Below, piece after piece: positions 23,244-30,898 of a stretch of DNA of 64,000 bases. The DNA is from Brumimicrobium salinarum. GTDB lineage: Bacteria; Bacteroidota; Bacteroidia; Flavobacteriales_D; Crocinitomicaceae. The DNA lies in NCBI RefSeq assembly GCF_002844555.1, contig NZ_PJNI01000001.1, positions 62,001 to 126,000 on the forward strand. Reading direction: 5' to 3'. The translations under genes and the position numbers were made by a program. Below the pieces are notes generated by a model. That model saw only the letters and a list, made by a program, of their open reading frames with translations. It was not told the origin of the DNA and did not search any database. The number at the start of each line of letters is the position of its first letter. Within the stretch, counting starts at the first letter, position 1.

Positions 23244-23689
23244 ATATCGGTATAATTCTTTTTGGTGGCATTTTTGTCGCGTAGCAAAACAAGAATGATG
23301 ACAAAAAAAATCGTGAATCAAAATATTATCTGTATTCAAAAGTAGCGGGGCTTTTGTGATATAAAATAGCCGATTTTAGTAACTTAGTCAATTTGTTAGA
23401 TAGAATTATTCATGAACACGAAATCTCAGCGAAGCATCTCGTAAGGTCATTAATAATCTAGGGTTAAACTATTAGTCTGGAGTTGAAGATTTTTTCTTGA
23501 TTCTCCGCCTTCTTACCACTAAGAATTTTAATGGATATCTTGCTTGATAGTCAACCTTTAAGTTAAAATCCTCAATCTGTAAGACTTTTATTGTAAAAAA
23601 TGAAATATCAAAAGATATATATAAAGATTTCTCGTCATCCCAATAAATTGGGATTCTGTCGAAAAGACCGGTTTCAGGCTAAGACAAAT

Positions 23690-23805: not shown

Positions 23806-24546
23806 TTACTGGTATAGTCGTGGGGAATCACTTTTTTTCTTGAGTGAAAAAGTATAACTCAATCCGAGTTGCGCATTTATATGATGAAACATCTTTGATT
23901 CTACTGGTACATTTTTTAACATTTCACGGTAATTGTCGCCATCATACCACTCTAAGTATTTATATTTCATTTTCCTTAGACTATAACCCATAGAAAAATT
24001 GAGGCGTACATCTTTGCTTAAACGAAAATCACAACCTAAAGAAATAGTTCCTAATAAAGGGGTAGATTGATAGAAGTTTGAGTTGTATGAATTATAAGGA
24101 TAAACAGTAAGGTATGTATAATAATTTATAATTCCATAATTCATTCTACCCAAATAACCATCCCTATAGTTTGTGGCTACTTCACTTAAAATGCTCAATC
24201 CTAAATAGGGACGAACTTTCTTTTGATTACTCAATAAATGATACGCAAAAGAACCGCCTATCATGTGACTTTTATATGCGAATTGAGTTTTACCAAGAGC
24301 CTTGTCTTCTGATGATATTATATTAGTCTTGTATCCATAAGTAGCGTAAAAGTAAAAATCACCTTTTGGTCTTTGAAAGTTTAATCCCAATTCTATTTTT
24401 GTAAGGTTGTATAGGTTTGAATAATTATCAAAAATTCGAGTGAAAGATCCATTGGAAAGCTGAGCACTCATCTTTGTTTCATTTTCTTGAGAAAAACTCA
24501 AAAGAGAACATAATACACTAAATATGAAAAGGGTTAAAGATTTCAT
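23806..24546 (-). CDS. outer-membrane beta-barrel protein (module copy 1)
   Basis: The 246-residue protein has a cleaved signal peptide (ending LSFSQ) and alternating amphipathic strands, each flanked by aromatic residues, as in small outer-membrane barrels. It is a paralogue of the barrels at 25801, 27589 and 28537. Its start overlaps by ATGA the stop of a decayed T9SS tail. The first ~30 residues and the last ~60 are almost identical to the 25801 copy while the middle differs, which points to recent exchange. Function unknown; exported partner proteins are suggested by the repeated pairing with T9SS-tailed genes. Confidence 0.75.
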   Translation of the reverse strand: MKSLTLFIFSVLCSLLSFSQENETKMSAQLSNGSFTRIFDNYSNLYNLTKIELGLNFQRPKGDFYFYATYGYKTNIISSEDKALGKTQFAYKSHMIGGSFAYHLLSNQKKVRPYLGLSILSEVATNYRDGYLGRMNYGIINYYTYLTVYPYNSYNSNFYQSTPLLGTISLGCDFRLSKDVRLNFSMGYSLRKMKYKYLEWYDGDNYREMLKNVPVESKMFHHINAQLGLSYTFSLKKKSDSPRLYQ

Positions 24547-24822
24547 TGCTTTATAATTTTAAAGGTTTGACTTTGTTTTTGTAACCTACCAATATACAAC
24601 CCACTCGAAAGAATTTTAGTTATTCTTGTCTCTCCTTTCCCCACCTTATATTCTCCAATAATAGTTCCAGCAAAAGATTAAAGAATAAAAACATCATCTT
24701 GGATGCTTTTTATTGTAAAGGATTTTTCAAACGGATTGGAGTAAATGTTACTTTCTTCTTTTATATTTAAAAATTCTTGTGTAATTATTGTTGTTTCATT
24801 ATACAAATTAACCTCGCTTACT
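24543..24822 (-). pseudogene. decayed T9SS tail with in-frame stop (module copy 1)
   Basis: Translation on the minus strand gives a T9SS-type tail, NIYSNPFEKSFTIKSIQDD (normally YPNPF), interrupted by TAA at 24678-24680. It then continues IIGEYKVGKGETRITKILSSGLYIGRL and ends NQ-type KIIKQ at a TGA that overlaps the barrel start. No body domain is left, so this is the remnant of a larger secreted-protein gene. Confidence 0.65.
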
Positions 24823-25270
24823 GTTTCTCACAGGTATACCTATACAAGCGATGATCTGTAACAGTGAAGGACGGATCACTAGGGCTTGGAGAGTAAGTAG
24901 ATGTTCCGCTTTGTGTTAGCGTAAACGAATTTTTTTTCCAATCTAAAGTATAAGTATCTGAGTCATCAAATTCATGGTATTTAATGGTTAGCTCATTTGG
25001 TGTGTTGGAATATCTGAAATCATATTTATAGGCATCGTAATCTTCTGCATGAATCATCCAACCCGATCCAGCCCTATTAAACTGCATCATGCCATAGTTT
25101 TCGTATACATCATTTTTTTCATTGGCAGGCCAGGTGGAAGTAACAATCTCTTCGTATTTAACAATGTCCCATTTTCCTCCGTTGTTCCATAAATTTCTTT
25201 CGATTTTCTTTTCTTTTTTACAGGCCGAAAATAAAAGTAAAGCAAATAGTAAAATTAATATATTTTTCAT
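24818..25270 (-). CDS. lipocalin-like hypothetical lipoprotein
   Basis: The 150-residue lipoprotein (LLLFSACKKEKK, Cys about 17) has a mature part beginning ERNLWNNGGKWDI and alternating beta strands ending YRYTCEKQ. This pattern is common in small Bacteroidota lipoproteins of lipocalin-like size; ligand unknown. The ATG at 25270 is preferred to a TTG at 25279. It is a paralogue of the next gene upstream. Confidence 0.7.
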   Translation of the reverse strand: MKNILILLFALLLFSACKKEKKIERNLWNNGGKWDIVKYEEIVTSTWPANEKNDVYENYGMMQFNRAGSGWMIHAEDYDAYKYDFRYSNTPNELTIKYHEFDDSDTYTLDWKKNSFTLTQSGTSTYSPSPSDPSFTVTDHRLYRYTCEKQ

Positions 25271-25311
25271 TTTGTACAAATTTAATTATTTATTATTGAA
25301 GGTAATAGGTC

Positions 25312-25796
25312 TTACTTTTTCTCGCAAATAAATTTCAATGAATAGGTAGTTGTTATTTGTATTGGGTTGTTGTTCTCATCATAATCCTCAAACTCTTGGA
25401 CCTCTGAAAAACTCATTATCATTTTATCTTTTTCCCATTCTAGATTATAAGCTACTCCACCATGATCAGCATAAATAAGATAAATTGAGTGCTCTGAATT
25501 GTGGTAAGTAAATTCCTTATTAATGTATTCTTCATACAGAAGACCTTCTAAATAAATAGCTAACTCTGAAGAATAATTTGTATTTCCTGTTCCATCTTTC
25601 TCAAACTGAATAGTTCCTCCATTGTTGATTACGTATGAATCATTATACTCTGGAGTAGATGCTGAGGTGTATGACTCCTCAAATGATTTAATCTCCCATT
25701 CACCACCTTTTTCCACAGGTTTCTTTCAATTTTCTTTTCTTTTTTACATCCTGTCGCTACTAATGTAATAAGGAGGATGAAGAGTAGTTTTTTCAT
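25312..25796 (-). pseudogene. lipocalin-like lipoprotein with N-terminal frameshift
   Basis: The start at 25796 gives a good lipoprotein signal, MKKLLFILLITLVATGCKK, then KEKKIERNLW, the same leader as the neighbouring paralogue. The frame is lost at a five-A run (25708-25712 on the plus strand as T). The remaining 134 residues (GGEWEIKSFEES to the ICEKK end) are open in the next frame, starting from a GTG. One extra A would restore a complete protein. As it stands the body lacks an export signal. Confidence 0.65.
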
Positions 25797-25800
25797 GGTT

Positions 25801-26535
25801 TTATATTTTAGTATTTTCTTTTGATTTCATTATTGAAAAAGTATAATTCAATCCGAGTTGCGCATTGATAAAATGAAACATTTTTGATTCCACTGGTACA
25901 TTTTTTAACATTTCACGGTAATTGTCGCCATCATACCACTCTAAGTATTTATATTTCATTTTCCTTAGACTATAACCCATAGAAAAATTGAGGCGTACAA
26001 CTTTACTTAAACGAAAATCACAACCTAAAGAAAGTGTGCCTAGAAAAGGGGTAGATTGATAGAAGTTTGAGATATTGAAAAGGTAAGAATTTGTCATAGA
26101 ATTAAGAGGTTTATTTATTATATAAAAAGAATTTGGTGTCATAAAGCCATCTTTATAATTTGTGGCTAATTCACTTAAAATGCTCATTCCAAAATAGGGT
26201 CGGACCTTCCTTTGAATACTCAATAGATGATACTCGAAAGAGCCACCGAACATATGGCTTTTATAAGAAAAGACGGTTAAGCCTGCAGATTTCTGAGAAG
26301 ATAGTAAAAGGTTGGTATTTAAGCCATATGTCACAAATAAATAAAAGTCACCCTTTGCTCTCTGAAAGTTTATGCCAAGATCTATTTTTGTTAGATTATA
26401 AAGATCGTGAGTATTTGTGAAAACGCGAGAGAAGGTACTATTTGAAAGCTGAGCACTCATCTTTGTTTCATTTTCTTGAGAAAAACTCAAAAGAGAACAT
26501 AATACACTAAATATGAAAAGGGCTAAAGTTTTCAT
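25801..26535 (-). CDS. outer-membrane beta-barrel protein (module copy 2)
   Basis: This 244-residue protein has a signal peptide (ending LSFSQ) and the same barrel architecture as the 23806 copy. The C-terminal block from about FSMGYSLRKMKYKYLEW is almost identical to that copy, also at the DNA level, while central loops differ. Its start overlaps by ATGA the stop of the T9SS-tailed gene upstream, so both should be co-translated. Confidence 0.75.
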   Translation of the reverse strand: MKTLALFIFSVLCSLLSFSQENETKMSAQLSNSTFSRVFTNTHDLYNLTKIDLGINFQRAKGDFYLFVTYGLNTNLLLSSQKSAGLTVFSYKSHMFGGSFEYHLLSIQRKVRPYFGMSILSELATNYKDGFMTPNSFYIINKPLNSMTNSYLFNISNFYQSTPFLGTLSLGCDFRLSKVVRLNFSMGYSLRKMKYKYLEWYDGDNYREMLKNVPVESKMFHFINAQLGLNYTFSIMKSKENTKI

Positions 26536-27505
26536 TGTTTGATTAGTTTAAAGGTTTTGTTTTGATTCATAAAAGTGATAATATACATTCCATCATTAAA
26601 AAAAGAGGAGTTAATTTTTGTAAGCCCTTCTTCTATATTGTAAATTCCTATAATTTTTCCTTCTACAGACTTTAAAACCATTTGGTCTTTTTGGGGGCTT
26701 TGAATTGATATGTAGTTTTGAAAAGGATTAGGGAAAACACTTAAAGGCTTTAAGTTGTCGTCTAATTGCAGGGTCTCTTCATTTGATAGACTGTCTAAAC
26801 CCGTGTTGACTAAAGACTTGCTTACCTCGCAATCTTCCTTATACATTACAAACCAAGCAGCAGGTAAATCATTACTACCATTATGACTTACTGTTAATTC
26901 AGGGTATCTTAAGGTAATTCCCCAGTTCCCATTTTTTTATTAGTCTCAATACAATCACTTTTTAAATATCCATCTCCTGCTCGAAAAGCAGAATACCAAT
27001 AAATACGATATTTAGTATGGGTTTTTAAATTGGTTACACGCAATTGCTCAGAATTCTTAACATAGTTCCATTCAGTATTTCTAGGGGTATTATACTTGGG
27101 ATCCATGTTAATATTGCTACAAGGCGATCCTATTCCTCTTGTTTTGACATTATAAGTTCTATTATAAACATAACCTACAGCCATTTTTTTATTAGAAGAA
27201 ATGTAATTCTGTTGTTCTACAGCATACTTCTTAAATATCCCATCATTTTCAGCTTTTCCCATCCCATGCTTCCAGCCTCCCCATGTATCACTCAAGGTAT
27301 TAATTACATCCTCCCCATTCATGTGGTTTTTTACACGAATTGTGGTTTTCCACATATCGTAAATGTGAGGAGCCATGGTTACGTTATCATTTTCATGTGT
27401 GAACTTAAACGGGGTATATCCTGGCCAACTGTTATAACCAGCTATTCCAATAAAAGGTAATTTCATTTTGTCGACAGGAAGCATTGAGTAGTTAGCGCAT
27501 TTCAT
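26532..27505 (-). pseudogene. T9SS-tailed secreted protein, N-truncated and frameshifted (module copy 2)
   Basis: Two frames make one protein. 26909-27505 encodes a Trp/Tyr/Asn-rich domain ending at residues ETNKK, and 26532 upward encodes a region starting about NWGITLRYPELTVSHNG, then a T9SS type A tail (VFPNPFQNYISIQSPQ, KLIKQ). They meet at an A7 run (26932-26938); A8 would join them. A stop lies eight codons before the first ATG and there is no signal peptide, so the N-terminal part seems lost as well. The enzymatic or binding role of the body is not recognisable. Confidence 0.65.
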
Positions 27506-27588
27506 AGTAGCAGTAATCTTAAATTAAAGATACTCTTTTTAATTAGATTTCAAAAGATTATATTGAAAAATCTGGTTTTGTTTGTTTC

Positions 27589-28404
27589 TTATTTTGGAGT
27601 TGTAGGTTTTTTCTTGAATGAAAAAGCATAGGTTAATCCTAATTGAACATCTAGCATATGTGAGTTTATGTTTTCATTTGGAATTGTTTTGAGTTTGTCA
27701 TAAACATTATCATTTTCTTTCCATTCTGCATATTTCACCTTCATTATACGAAAGTCATAGCCCAGTGCAATATTTAAGTTTAAATTTTTAATTAGTTTAA
27801 TATCGACTCCACCAAGAAAATTAATTACTAAAGGTGTAGAATAATAAAAATGAGAATAATAATAATCAACTGCTGGATCTTCTCCACCTGGGGTTGGATC
27901 GATATAGCTAAAGCTAGGTTCAACTTTTGGAAAATACTCATTAAATACGAGAAGTCCATTTTTATAATTAGAATAAACTTCAGATAAAACAGCGATTTTC
28001 AAAAATGGTCTTACTTTTTTGTTATGTTCTCGAAAAATATATTTTGATGAAGCACCTATCAAATGAATTCGTTGAAGTGATTTATAAGGTCTTATCTTAT
28101 TTCCTTTTGAATCAAAATGTTCTGTTTTCTGATTTTCATAATCAATAGAAATACTGTCAAAAGGATAGGAATAGGTTACATTGGATGAGAATTGATATGC
28201 AAAAGATATAATAAAGTCTCCGTTTTTATTATTATTTAACTTCGTTCCTATATCAAAGTTAAAACCACCATAAACCTGAGCTGCCTTGTTACTTATTATC
28301 TCCTTTGAAAATGAACCTGAAACATCAACAATAATGGATGGTTTTTCTTGAGAAAAACTTAATATATATAGACTTACAAAAAACAAAGTGAGACGATTTT
28401 TCAT
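27589..28404 (-). CDS. outer-membrane beta-barrel protein (module copy 3)
   Basis: The 271-residue protein has a signal peptide (ending LSFSQ) and a barrel of the same family, more divergent than copies 1 and 2 but sharing the C-terminal KYAEW and FSFKKK end pattern. Its start overlaps by ATGA the stop of a short T9SS-tail remnant. Function unknown. Confidence 0.72.
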   Translation of the reverse strand: MKNRLTLFFVSLYILSFSQEKPSIIVDVSGSFSKEIISNKAAQVYGGFNFDIGTKLNNNKNGDFIISFAYQFSSNVTYSYPFDSISIDYENQKTEHFDSKGNKIRPYKSLQRIHLIGASSKYIFREHNKKVRPFLKIAVLSEVYSNYKNGLLVFNEYFPKVEPSFSYIDPTPGGEDPAVDYYYSHFYYSTPLVINFLGGVDIKLIKNLNLNIALGYDFRIMKVKYAEWKENDNVYDKLKTIPNENINSHMLDVQLGLTYAFSFKKKPTTPK

Positions 28405-28517
28405 TTTTTTATAATTTTAAAGGTTTGAGATTGGTTACGAAGAGTTCCAATATACATCCCATTTGAAAGGTTTGTTGAGATCTTAGTTTCTCTCTTTTTA
28501 AATATTATGTTTTCCGA
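28401..28517 (-). pseudogene. T9SS tail remnant (module copy 3)
   Basis: About 38 codons on the minus strand read KKRETKISTNLSNGMYIGTL and end QTFKIIKK with TGA overlapping the next ATG. This is the last part of a T9SS type A tail. The rest of the gene is missing; the preceding barrel gene's stop lies just beyond. Confidence 0.6.
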
Positions 28518-28536
28518 TTATTTTATAGTGTTGTGT

Positions 28537-29229
28537 TTATATTTTTTCTTTTTTCTTAAATGAAAAAGCGTAGCTTAAGCCTAACCTCGGATTTACATAA
28601 GAAAACATCATAGATTTTACTGGTGTACCTTTAAGTATTTCACGATAATCTTCATGATCTTCCCATTCTAAATATTTATATTTTAATTTTTGTAATGCTA
28701 ATCCAACGGAAAGGTTGAGATGTAAATCCTTCATTAAACGAAAATCGCAACCAACCGAGAAACTTCCTAAAAATGGCATTGATTGGTAAAACCCCGAACT
28801 ATTAAAAGAAGAAATATTATTACCAGCTGAAGTATGAATATGACTATCATTTGTTAAAAAACTATCTTCCCCTAAAAAACCTCCTTTATAATTTGTTGCT
28901 ACCTCAGTAATTACAGATACACCAAAATAGGGTCTTACTTTTTTTTGATTTTTTAAGAAGTGATATTCAAATGCACCTCCTAAAAAGTGTCCTCTATATA
29001 AAAAACTAGTATTGAAACCATAAGTGAAATAAAGATATATATCACCGTTTTTTTTTTGAAAATCGGCTCCTAGTTCTAATGTTGTTGAGTTAATCAGCGA
29101 GCCGTGGTTTGAGAATAAATCCATATAAATAGTTTGTGAAACTTGCACAGTCAGTTTTGTTTCTTCGTTTTGAGAAAAGGCTAAGAATGGTGTAATCATG
29201 CAATAGCCTAGTATTTTCATTGATTTCAT
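28537..29229 (-). CDS. outer-membrane beta-barrel protein (module copy 4)
   Basis: The 230-residue family member has a signal peptide (ending LAFSQ) and the conserved segments GGAFEYHFLKNQKKVRPYFG and LKYKYLEW. It is shorter in its extracellular-loop regions than copies 1-3. Overlaps the upstream T9SS-tailed gene by ATGA. Confidence 0.74.
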   Translation of the reverse strand: MKSMKILGYCMITPFLAFSQNEETKLTVQVSQTIYMDLFSNHGSLINSTTLELGADFQKKNGDIYLYFTYGFNTSFLYRGHFLGGAFEYHFLKNQKKVRPYFGVSVITEVATNYKGGFLGEDSFLTNDSHIHTSAGNNISSFNSSGFYQSMPFLGSFSVGCDFRLMKDLHLNLSVGLALQKLKYKYLEWEDHEDYREILKGTPVKSMMFSYVNPRLGLSYAFSFKKKEKI

Positions 29230-30006
29230 TGTTTTATTATCTTATGTGTGATATTTTGATCTATAAAAGTGATGAGAAATATTCCACTATTTAAATATGT
29301 AGTATTAATATTTGTAATACCTTGTTCATTATTGTAATTGCCTATAATTTTTCCTTCAATTGACTTTATGACCATTTGATCTTTTTGAGGACTTTGGGTT
29401 GATAAGTAATTACGAAATGGATTAGGATAGATATTTAAAAGCGTTAGATTTAATGTATAAATCAACTTCGTCTAACTTTAACAATGGATATTGATCCTCA
29501 AATACAAAATCAGGCCAATTCCTACCATCGACAATCACCTCTCTTGTGTGGGTTATACCATCCACTCCGTTAACGTAAAAAATATCTTGAGTCCCATTAC
29601 TCAATCTTAAATCTCCATTTGCTTTCAGTAAAAAAACTGTTTTCTGAAAATTGGTTTGTGGGTTTAAAACGCCAGCATGTATTAATGAAGATGATGATGA
29701 TGGAGTACCAAAATGATTAATGCTTAGCTTCCCGGCAAACCGGTTTTCCTGCCCAATCACTAAAGAGTGGGTTAAGGTTGACCCGTTAATAATCGTATTT
29801 CCTTTAACATGCAATCTTTCTTTTGGATTTTGTGTTCCTAGCCCCAAACGAACATTGCAGTTTTGAGAACCAGAAGTTACTATTTTTTTATTTCCATACA
29901 CCCAAGAAGGAGTATAAGGCTCGGGACAAGCTATTTGCCCTAAACCTGGTCGAACAATTATCTGAGCGTGAAAAGTGTTACTTATATATAAAAATGCGAA
30001 AACCAT
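29226..30006 (-). pseudogene. T9SS-tailed secreted protein with internal deletion (module copy 4)
   Basis: The upstream frame (29422-30006) starts with a signal peptide (FLYISNTFHAQ) and a tail-fibre-like body (LGLGTQNPKERLHVKG, DGRNWPDFVFEDQYP, LKLDEVDLYIK). It loses frame at about 29440 and the T9SS tail (NIYPNPFRNYLSTQSPQ, KIIKQ) is in another frame. Related proteins have roughly 50-60 residues (IKxNGHLPxxP and a coiled coil) between these points, so an internal deletion that also shifted the frame is the simplest reading. The body could still be made without its secretion tail. Confidence 0.62.
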
Positions 30007-30577
30007 AATAAGTTTACCGCTTAATCTCGCTAAACAATTTTTGTTTATAAAAATTGATGTGTGATGTGTGCATAATCAGTAGTAGTTAAAATTCTAGTTA
30101 AATATAGTTATTTAAAAATACTTATCAATTTTTTAACAACGTTTTTTTTCTAAACCGCCTTATTTGAGCTGCATCAAAGGCTCGAATTGAAGTAACAAAA
30201 ACAGTCAGCAATACTTAGCCTGACTTATTTAATAGTCTAATCCAAAAATCTGGTAGCGAATGAAAATCATTATTTTAACTGTATTTTAAAAAAATTCAAG
30301 AACCTTATTTTGGAGACTTAGCCCGCTTTATTCACCAATCTTGATTCTTAAAAACACAATTTATTAATAATCAGATGTTTAAAAGTGCTCTATACGATTT
30401 CAAAGAAACCCAAATTTGGGTATCGATAATTTGGAAGATTCAAAATTAAATTAGCTGCGCTGAGACTTCGTGTTCATGGATAAAGCGGGTTAGGCTGATG
30501 AAAGATTTTTATTTATACGTCGTCACAAGCCATTTAAAATAACAATCAAATACAAACCTAGCTATTTAACGCATTAA

Positions 30578-30777: not shown

Positions 30778-30898
30778 TCAGGATGACAGACCTAATAGTG
30801 GTAGGAGGCAAAAATCAGGGGTTGGAAGTGATGGCGCAAGGCGCCATCACTTCCATACCCTGATTTTTGATTGCCCTCCCTTGAAACTGTCATCCTGA
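30778..30898. repeat. nested palindromic element
   Basis: An outer 12-base perfect inverted repeat (TCAGGATGACAG at 30778-30789, complement at 30887-30898) encloses a 28-base inverted repeat (30810-30837 with 30841-30868, two mismatches, 3-base loop). Read as RNA this is one long, very stable hairpin. The flank (GTCATCCTGAACCTTGGAAAA) resembles text near 10235, so related elements may be dispersed in the genome. Confidence 0.75.

Follow-up and report, generated by a model that had tools for sequence, protein, structure and literature searches.

A decayed array of secretion tails and outer-membrane barrels in Brumimicrobium salinarum, possibly the relic of a module-swapping surface-protein system

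Why would a bacterium keep four intact outer-membrane barrel genes when the secreted proteins encoded just upstream of them have fallen apart? The question is raised by a stretch of 64,000 nucleotides of the 3.41 Mb genome of Brumimicrobium salinarum (G000 C1, positions 62001-126000; hereafter the window), in which four sorting tails of the type IX secretion system (T9SS) each run into the start of a barrel gene. A sequence-only reading of the window had proposed a functional link between the two, the barrel being a dedicated anchor or receptor for each secreted protein, with selection now acting on the barrel. The key feature is invisible from the window alone: in relatives, truncated modules share a recombination anchor with a full-length gene. 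We consider, with a probability of about 0.5, that the region is the remnant of a polymorphic surface-protein system that swaps its modules; that the partner gene provides immunity or a receptor replacement is somewhat less probable.

Full-length genes and truncated modules in relatives

Behind the full-length gene, the relatives encode 5'-truncated, signal-less modules made of a short anchor, a C-terminal domain, a tail and a partner gene. The truncated copies of G007 (351-376 codons) show identities of 0.91-0.99 to the full-length gene over residues 640-697, after which similarity drops off. Across 12 units, the median nucleotide identity of the anchor is 0.91 within genomes vs 0.53 between them (16 and 49 pairs), and the corresponding values are 0.54 and 0.52 for the C-terminal domain and 0.53 and 0.51 for the tail. 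Barrel segments have 0.39-0.57 within and 0.41-0.51 between genomes (13 and 41 pairs). Outside the anchor, modules of the same genome are as diverged as those of different species. This analysis and those of loop lengths and distance correlations omit the G007_B1 unit or the A1/B1 pair, a near-identical copy. In a distant lineage (G009, L167), a full-length protein with lipoprotein and outer-membrane protein (OMP) partners is accompanied by an orphan module that begins at the same strand ('PVMYSEAG' vs 'VNIISEGG') and is 94.5% identical to its own full-length gene over 165 nucleotides (nt).

The arrays are also mosaic. They contain near-identical blocks of 86-411 nt and longer, and synonymous differences cluster in 11 of the 12 within-genome pairs that we picked by hand vs none of four between-species pairs; barrels 3 and 4 of the window are among the clustered ones (p=0.0002). 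The two full-length loci of G007 start with different signal peptides in their fibre-like genes, then share 3.7 kb at 99.4% identity, a stretch that terminates inside barrels with diverged middles. Transposition of whole units is not supported by this stretch, which ends at the signal-peptide junction of the fibre gene and inside a barrel gene.

Within modules, the distance between barrels correlates with the distance between C-terminal domains (r=0.50, p=0.0009, n=13; 0.42, p=0.005, n=11 when the two most distant units are left out), between tails (r=0.44, p=0.0034; 0.33, p=0.022) and, less so, between anchors (r=0.35, p=0.02; 0.16, p=0.15). The best cross-species matches between C-terminal domains, 0.57-0.65, join G007 A3, G003 C21 (from Brumimicrobium aurantiacum N62, a congener of the window species) and the third copy in the window. 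The barrels of these three units are 0.36-0.51 alike, compared with a cross-genome median of 0.25-0.27, so that three species with a common type of C-terminal domain also have a common type of barrel, with different anchors. In G007 and G003, modules without a signal peptide nonetheless have open frames of 320-376 codons; at 0.1 neutral substitutions per site, the probability of remaining free of stops is ≤0.015 per module (six simulated modules; the true age of the truncations may differ). Modular swapping is well supported. Module anatomy, anchor homogenisation and mosaicism, like the tail-partner association described below, can be read directly from the genomes; that swapping alters the expressed protein within a lineage is what we infer from them.

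The intact partners, 883-962 residues in length, have an apparent signal peptide, a DUF5060-like stretch and a type A tail. As is typical of type A T9SS substrates, the full-length relatives combine a signal peptide (identified by eye) with a tail matched by TIGR04183/PF18962; the window copies are without the signal-peptide part. The core, similar to glycoside hydrolases (GH), is related to the structures 9gmj/9gpc of the PDB (9gmj, E-value 2.4e-19 with an alignment profile), and two catalytic-type Glu, at positions that we take to be typical of clan GH-A enzymes, are retained in 18/18 aligned proteins, tailed and tail-less. With a DUF5060 domain (the L041 protein falls below its cut-off), a homologous core and the two Glu, the tailed protein is classed by its sequence as DUF5060-type GH-like, a putative enzyme. 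The assignment of domains rests on sequence matches because the AlphaFold model built with five sequences reached a predicted local distance difference test score (pLDDT) of 36. No toxin family matched the full-length relatives that we scanned.

In several relatives a fibre-like gene precedes the full-length enzyme gene. It has a WPDYVF motif and a C-terminal coil and is found upstream of many tailed genes (e.g., L041 16483-17316, L042 5614-6477). The two copies of G007 have differing signal peptides and near-identical mature parts.

Tails and their envelope partners

Is the partner gene a feature of the tail or of the GH-like protein in general? Among the tailed GH-like proteins, 13/14 have an envelope partner gene directly downstream, at -4 to +12 nt (-4 in 10/13): a family barrel in eight cases, another OMP in two and a lipoprotein in three. 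None of the 25 distinct tail-less GH-like loci has such a gene (Fisher's exact test, 1.7e-9, uncorrected for phylogeny). These counts exclude L171, whose gene is broken, L173, which lacks a stop, L164, for want of downstream sequence, and L114, which duplicates L101. L175 and L176 were placed in neither class: the profile misses their tail, though the C-terminus is tail-like, and a lipoprotein gene is at -16; counting them as tail-less brings the control to 2/27. This association, the intact T9SS-barrel pairs found in relatives and the correlated distances all support the functional link proposed from the window. The partner is probably dedicated to the tailed protein, and we are slightly more confident still of the module architecture as deduced from sequence.

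Type A tails number 120 in G007 and 85 in G027. The 30 best-scoring type A tails of these two genomes have no family barrel within the sampled stretches, and the 15 paired tails form one clade apart from them. The mean identity of paired tails across genomes is 0.368 vs 0.246 to unpaired ones (p=0.0002). Plain descent might account for the clade because all paired tails derive from one protein family.

We then gathered 40 family barrels from the window and its relatives, excluding the contig-start fragments L038 and L039 1-402; the L037, L051 and L041:6922 barrels were entered with approximate starts, and none of them had a tail match. The tail upstream is nearly full in 18 barrels, partial in five and absent in 17, and the tail-barrel register is identical in 22 of the 23 with a tail match. 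The register is the informative part. The ATGA overlap, on which the sequence-only reading had relied, was dropped as trivial: by itself the string is little evidence because codon 2 of the barrel is nearly always Lys or Arg, and unpaired barrels share it. That reading had also asked whether barrels usually occur without T9SS genes or decay in relatives. The former is not the usual state, though it is partly approached by the 17/40, and the latter concerns a small minority of two broken barrels in 40 (L046 10821-11642, L048 9801-10274). Partner genes also occur in runs of their own, such as five barrels in L046 and four lipoproteins in each of L165 and L175.

The barrels are predicted with confidence by AlphaFold to have eight strands (36 family members, pLDDT 89.9, predicted TM-score 0.82). 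Foldseek searches of the PDB with this model gave OmpW as top match (8qxp, E-value 1.5e-6), and NspA and OmpX were also matched. Variation in length is concentrated in the predicted extracellular loops L1-L4 (standard deviations of 2.7-7.3), when strands vary by 0-1.2, except b2 at 5.2. The nine most similar within-array pairs have ratios of nonsynonymous to synonymous substitution rates of 0.21-0.53, which supports purifying selection on the barrels, in line with what had been suspected from the window.

Other settings were seen around these genes. Three family barrels without T9SS tails lie amid other lipoprotein genes at L044 8088-12055, possibly another setting of the same family. Downstream of the GH-like gene at L175 4914-7015 and L176 5312-7220, small lipoprotein genes of two kinds take turns (A-B-A-B), in tandem duplicates of ~89-94% identity.

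The array of B. salinarum

The components of the window array, all on the minus strand, are given below in descending order of position.

29422..30006, minus strand: fibre-like gene, truncated and joined to tail 1 out of frame
29226..29465, minus strand: T9SS type A tail 1 (PF18962 6.2e-7, TIGR04183 8.8e-8), overlaps the start of barrel 1
28537..29229, minus strand: barrel 1, 230 residues, intact open reading frame (ORF), predicted 8-stranded outer-membrane barrel family
28405..28520 (upstream end approximate), minus strand: tail 2 remnant, second half of the tail only (profile positions 36-68), overlaps the start of barrel 2
27589..28404, minus strand: barrel 2, 271 residues, intact, closest to the L045 and L041 7730/12078 barrels of other species
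26909..27505, minus strand: copy 3 orphan module, anchor region and C-terminal domain of the GH-like protein, without signal peptide
26532..26936, minus strand: T9SS tail 3 with the remainder of the C-terminal domain, in a different frame, overlaps the start of barrel 3
25801..26535, minus strand: barrel 3, 244 residues, intact, structure-modelled member (pLDDT 89.9; OmpW, E-value 1.5e-6)
25312..25796, minus strand: small lipoprotein gene, signal part (~25717-25796) out of frame with ORF 25312-25716
24818..25279, minus strand: intact small lipoprotein gene, homologous to that of the line above (27.6%, E-value 6e-7)
24543..24827, minus strand: tail 4, one in-frame stop, overlaps the start of barrel 4
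23806..24546, minus strand: barrel 4, 246 residues, intact, mosaic with barrel 3 (p=0.0002)

The four overlaps noted in the sequence-only reading are present, the terminal TGA of each tail frame overlapping the barrel ATG, and the four barrel ORFs are open as it had stated. With both PF18962 and TIGR04183, tails 1 and 3 score above the curated cut-off; a profile grown from these two tails detected tails 2 and 4, of which tail 4 is full-length when read through its single stop. The history of the secreted genes needs revision. Copies 2 and 4 indeed keep a tail only, half of it in the former and with one stop in the latter. Copy 1 is not one frameshifted gene: the enzyme gene has been deleted, because the fibre-like gene, which is upstream of the enzyme in relatives, joins the enzyme tail out of frame. 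Copy 3 does change frame, near 26,910-26,936, but it is a 5'-truncated C-terminal fragment and not a whole gene; its part at 26909..27505 aligns with residues 643-829 of the L041 protein at 46% identity. What the window has left is a relic, in which the full-length gene is deleted, the module frames are broken and the four barrels are intact. Elsewhere in the genome there is a fifth, unpaired barrel copy (contig C86), and the sole other GH-like homologue is a tail-less paralogue (contig C23).

The window barrels have no Pfam or NCBIfam match above cut-off. The two small lipoprotein genes, absent from the earlier reading, sit within the array; the protein of 24818..25279 has weak lipocalin-like and BSAP-5i immunity matches, below cut-off. 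We considered their membership of the L165/L177 lipoprotein family and rejected it: there is no blast link, just a shared G-x-W look. The array is flanked, ~7 kb apart, by 30-nt inverted repeats (90%) at 23406-23435 and 30454-30483, which may mark the limits of the array or be intergenic repeats of a dispersed kind. A near-perfect palindrome with 29-nt arms and a 3-nt loop lies beside it at 30809-30869.

Role of the partner and comparison with known systems

How could such a system work? The intact form would have four components: a fibre-like gene; a full-length secreted protein (signal peptide, GH-like catalytic part, C-terminal domain, type A tail); an envelope partner gene coupled to it in translation, which encodes an 8-stranded barrel, another OMP or a lipoprotein; and the array of modules, which are truncated at the 5' end, have no signal peptide and combine the anchor with a different C-terminal domain, a tail and a partner gene of their own. 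If RecA-type recombination took place at the anchor, i.e., in the strands that surround the second catalytic-type Glu, the catalytic part of the GH-like protein would stay constant and acquire another C-terminal domain, tail and partner. The partner would protect the producer from the secreted protein or be a receptor that the latter does not target, in the manner of the immunity genes of CDI/Rhs arrays and of the resistant receptor orthologues next to BSAP genes (both discussed below); this role, suggested by analogy, is tentative. In the window cell the effector would have been lost and the partner genes kept, an orphan-immunity state. A more specific version, which we find a little harder to accept, is a polymorphic T9SS system of antagonism or kin recognition in which a receptor-choosing C-terminal domain, the tail and an outer-membrane self-protection gene would be swapped as one cassette, and orphan protection genes would outlast the weapon.

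The serious rival, although on balance unlikely, is a dedicated anchor: the barrel or lipoprotein would bind the tail or C-terminal domain and hold the enzyme at the surface or complete its export, and modules would include the partner since tail and anchor must match. Gene order and coupling mirror the logic of SprB/SprF (PMC12618676, PMC9143113), and both the clade of paired tails and the tail-barrel correlation fit such a match. However, the clade may reflect descent, and the identical tails of G007 A1/B1 are next to barrels just 76% alike. The modelled 8-stranded barrel is also too narrow for a FadL-like shuttle and has no match to PorP/SprF models, and type A tails are described as using PorV (PMC12618676). 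An anchor does not predict partner-only runs or retention after loss of the enzyme. We prefer self-protection precisely because such runs are common and because all four barrels of the window are intact although its enzyme gene is gone. The narrower claim of the sequence-only reading, a barrel as anchor or receptor for one secreted protein, is not supported in view of the tail-less barrels, the partner-only runs, the lipoprotein substitutes and the decaying barrels.

Two further explanations dispense with a partnership, and we hold both to be improbable, the second marginally more so. If the array were a store of loop and C-terminal domain variants used in gene conversion to vary the surface against phages or grazers, one would understand why barrels vary in their predicted extracellular loops and are mosaics with near-identical ends and diverged middles. 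Yet the barrels in runs look co-expressed and not silent, because each retains a signal peptide and a start codon, and it would stay unexplained why the tail predicts a partner and why some lineages use lipoproteins. Alternatively, tandem duplication, unequal crossing-over and gene conversion in a repetitive locus might suffice, with no special function; tails would persist through duplication breakpoints and through the open frame that keeps the barrel translated before ATGA. Conversion tracts are expected in any such array, the window copies are decaying, the junction sequence is retained even where the remaining tail is gone, and coupled translation could hold module frames open. Against this stand the improbably open signal-less frames of G007 and G003, the same break point and anchor in a distant lineage, and a tail-partner association spanning two unrelated partner classes.

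Several points weigh against a swapped pair of effector and protection genes. The variable domain looks like an ordinary GH accessory domain, common to tail-less relatives, and the tailed protein may simply be a surface polysaccharidase, a possibility raised by the retention of both Glu in 18/18 proteins. The barrel family is sparse (13/240 genomes of the bacterial family), with 17/40 members lacking an upstream tail. The longest copy of G003 has no signal peptide, the two units of G027 show no anchor homogenisation (0.53), and no partner follows the tailed gene at L169/L096, where the frame is split by masked bases. The associations are without phylogenetic correction; the anchor-barrel correlation too reaches p=0.02 at n=13, physical linkage alone may produce the co-variation of C-terminal domains and barrels, and module frames might stay open through their coupling to the barrel, even if they never served as donors. 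Finally, the comparison is of one genome per species, and no strain pair shows an actual swap.

The copy number in G003 is uncertain because the array breaks the assembly. Its contig C9 (4,496 bases) overlaps the ends of C21 (99.3%) and C18 (94.8%), and L038, L039 and L040 are contig ends. At L040 3300-3360, a (CA)n tract stands where the GH-like gene should have its missing 5' part; it could be a scar of simple-repeat recombination or an assembly artefact.

A role of the T9SS in bacterial contests has been proposed and left open (PMC7073777). A T9SS-tailed family with orphan-module arrays in a culturable genus offers a concrete test case for protection, recognition and module swapping. It is also a case of a type A substrate whose gene is coupled to that of an outer-membrane partner, dedicated partners having been described for type B substrates, and accounts for runs of unnamed small barrels and lipoproteins in the annotation of Crocinitomicaceae genomes.

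Among known systems, type B T9SS substrates have a cognate PorP/SprF shuttle gene downstream (PMC12618676, PMC9143113), and here too a tailed gene directly precedes the gene of its cognate outer-membrane barrel. The locus differs by its type A tail, OmpW-like modelled barrel, truncated-module arrays and possible lipoprotein partners. We excluded PorP/SprF membership (no model match; eight strands and not the 14 of FadL-like barrels; top match OmpW) and a type B C-terminal domain (TIGR04131) upstream of the barrels, where tails are PF18962/TIGR04183, i.e., type A. The Bacteroidales secreted antimicrobial proteins (BSAPs) are described as a constant effector with a variable C-terminal domain, targeting an outer-membrane barrel, a lipoprotein or lipopolysaccharide and encoded next to a resistant version of the target (PMC4999547, PMC12853789). 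The division into constant and variable parts is shared, and both partner classes found here, barrels and lipoproteins, are BSAP target classes. In contrast, BSAPs kill with a MACPF domain, which had no match in the scanned full-length relatives, leave by the lipoprotein route, and have no orphan-module arrays in the cited parts of these papers (PMC4999547, PMC12853789). The TANFOR toxins of Bacteroidetes have polymorphic C-termini, downstream partner genes for immunity and a proposed link to the T9SS (PMC7073777). They resemble our locus in the polymorphic C-termini, the downstream partner genes and the T9SS, but no TANFOR domain was recognised here, and the protein carries the T9SS tail itself. 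Among the titles and abstract openings retrieved by literature searches, none described T9SS-tailed DUF5060 proteins with orphan modules.

The vlsE and pilS systems combine one expression site with partial donor copies that have conserved recombination stretches. The present arrays have the same layout, except that the whole 3' end and a second gene would be exchanged and that partner genes look expressed. Cassette arrays of orphan modules typify polymorphic toxin systems, and to our knowledge this layout has so far been known from bacterial toxin-immunity systems. In the orphan cdiA-CT/cdiI arrays of contact-dependent growth inhibition (CDI) and Rhs systems, a full-length gene is accompanied by 5'-truncated fragments with partner genes (PMC3150448). 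Here, likewise, a full-length gene is followed by signal-less fragments, each with a downstream partner (G007, G003, G009; modules only in the window), the fragments have one short, conserved stretch in common with the full-length gene and diverge beyond it (except in the G027 pair), and partner genes can stand alone. The proteins differ in using the T9SS instead of two-partner secretion or Rhs, in a DUF5060/GH-like constant part devoid of VENN, FHA or YD repeats and of any recognised toxin domain, in partners that are outer-membrane barrels or lipoproteins, and in the sorting tail placed between the variable domain and the partner gene. Since scaffold, secretion route and partner types differ, the locus resembles the CDI/Rhs arrays in its architecture without being one of them.

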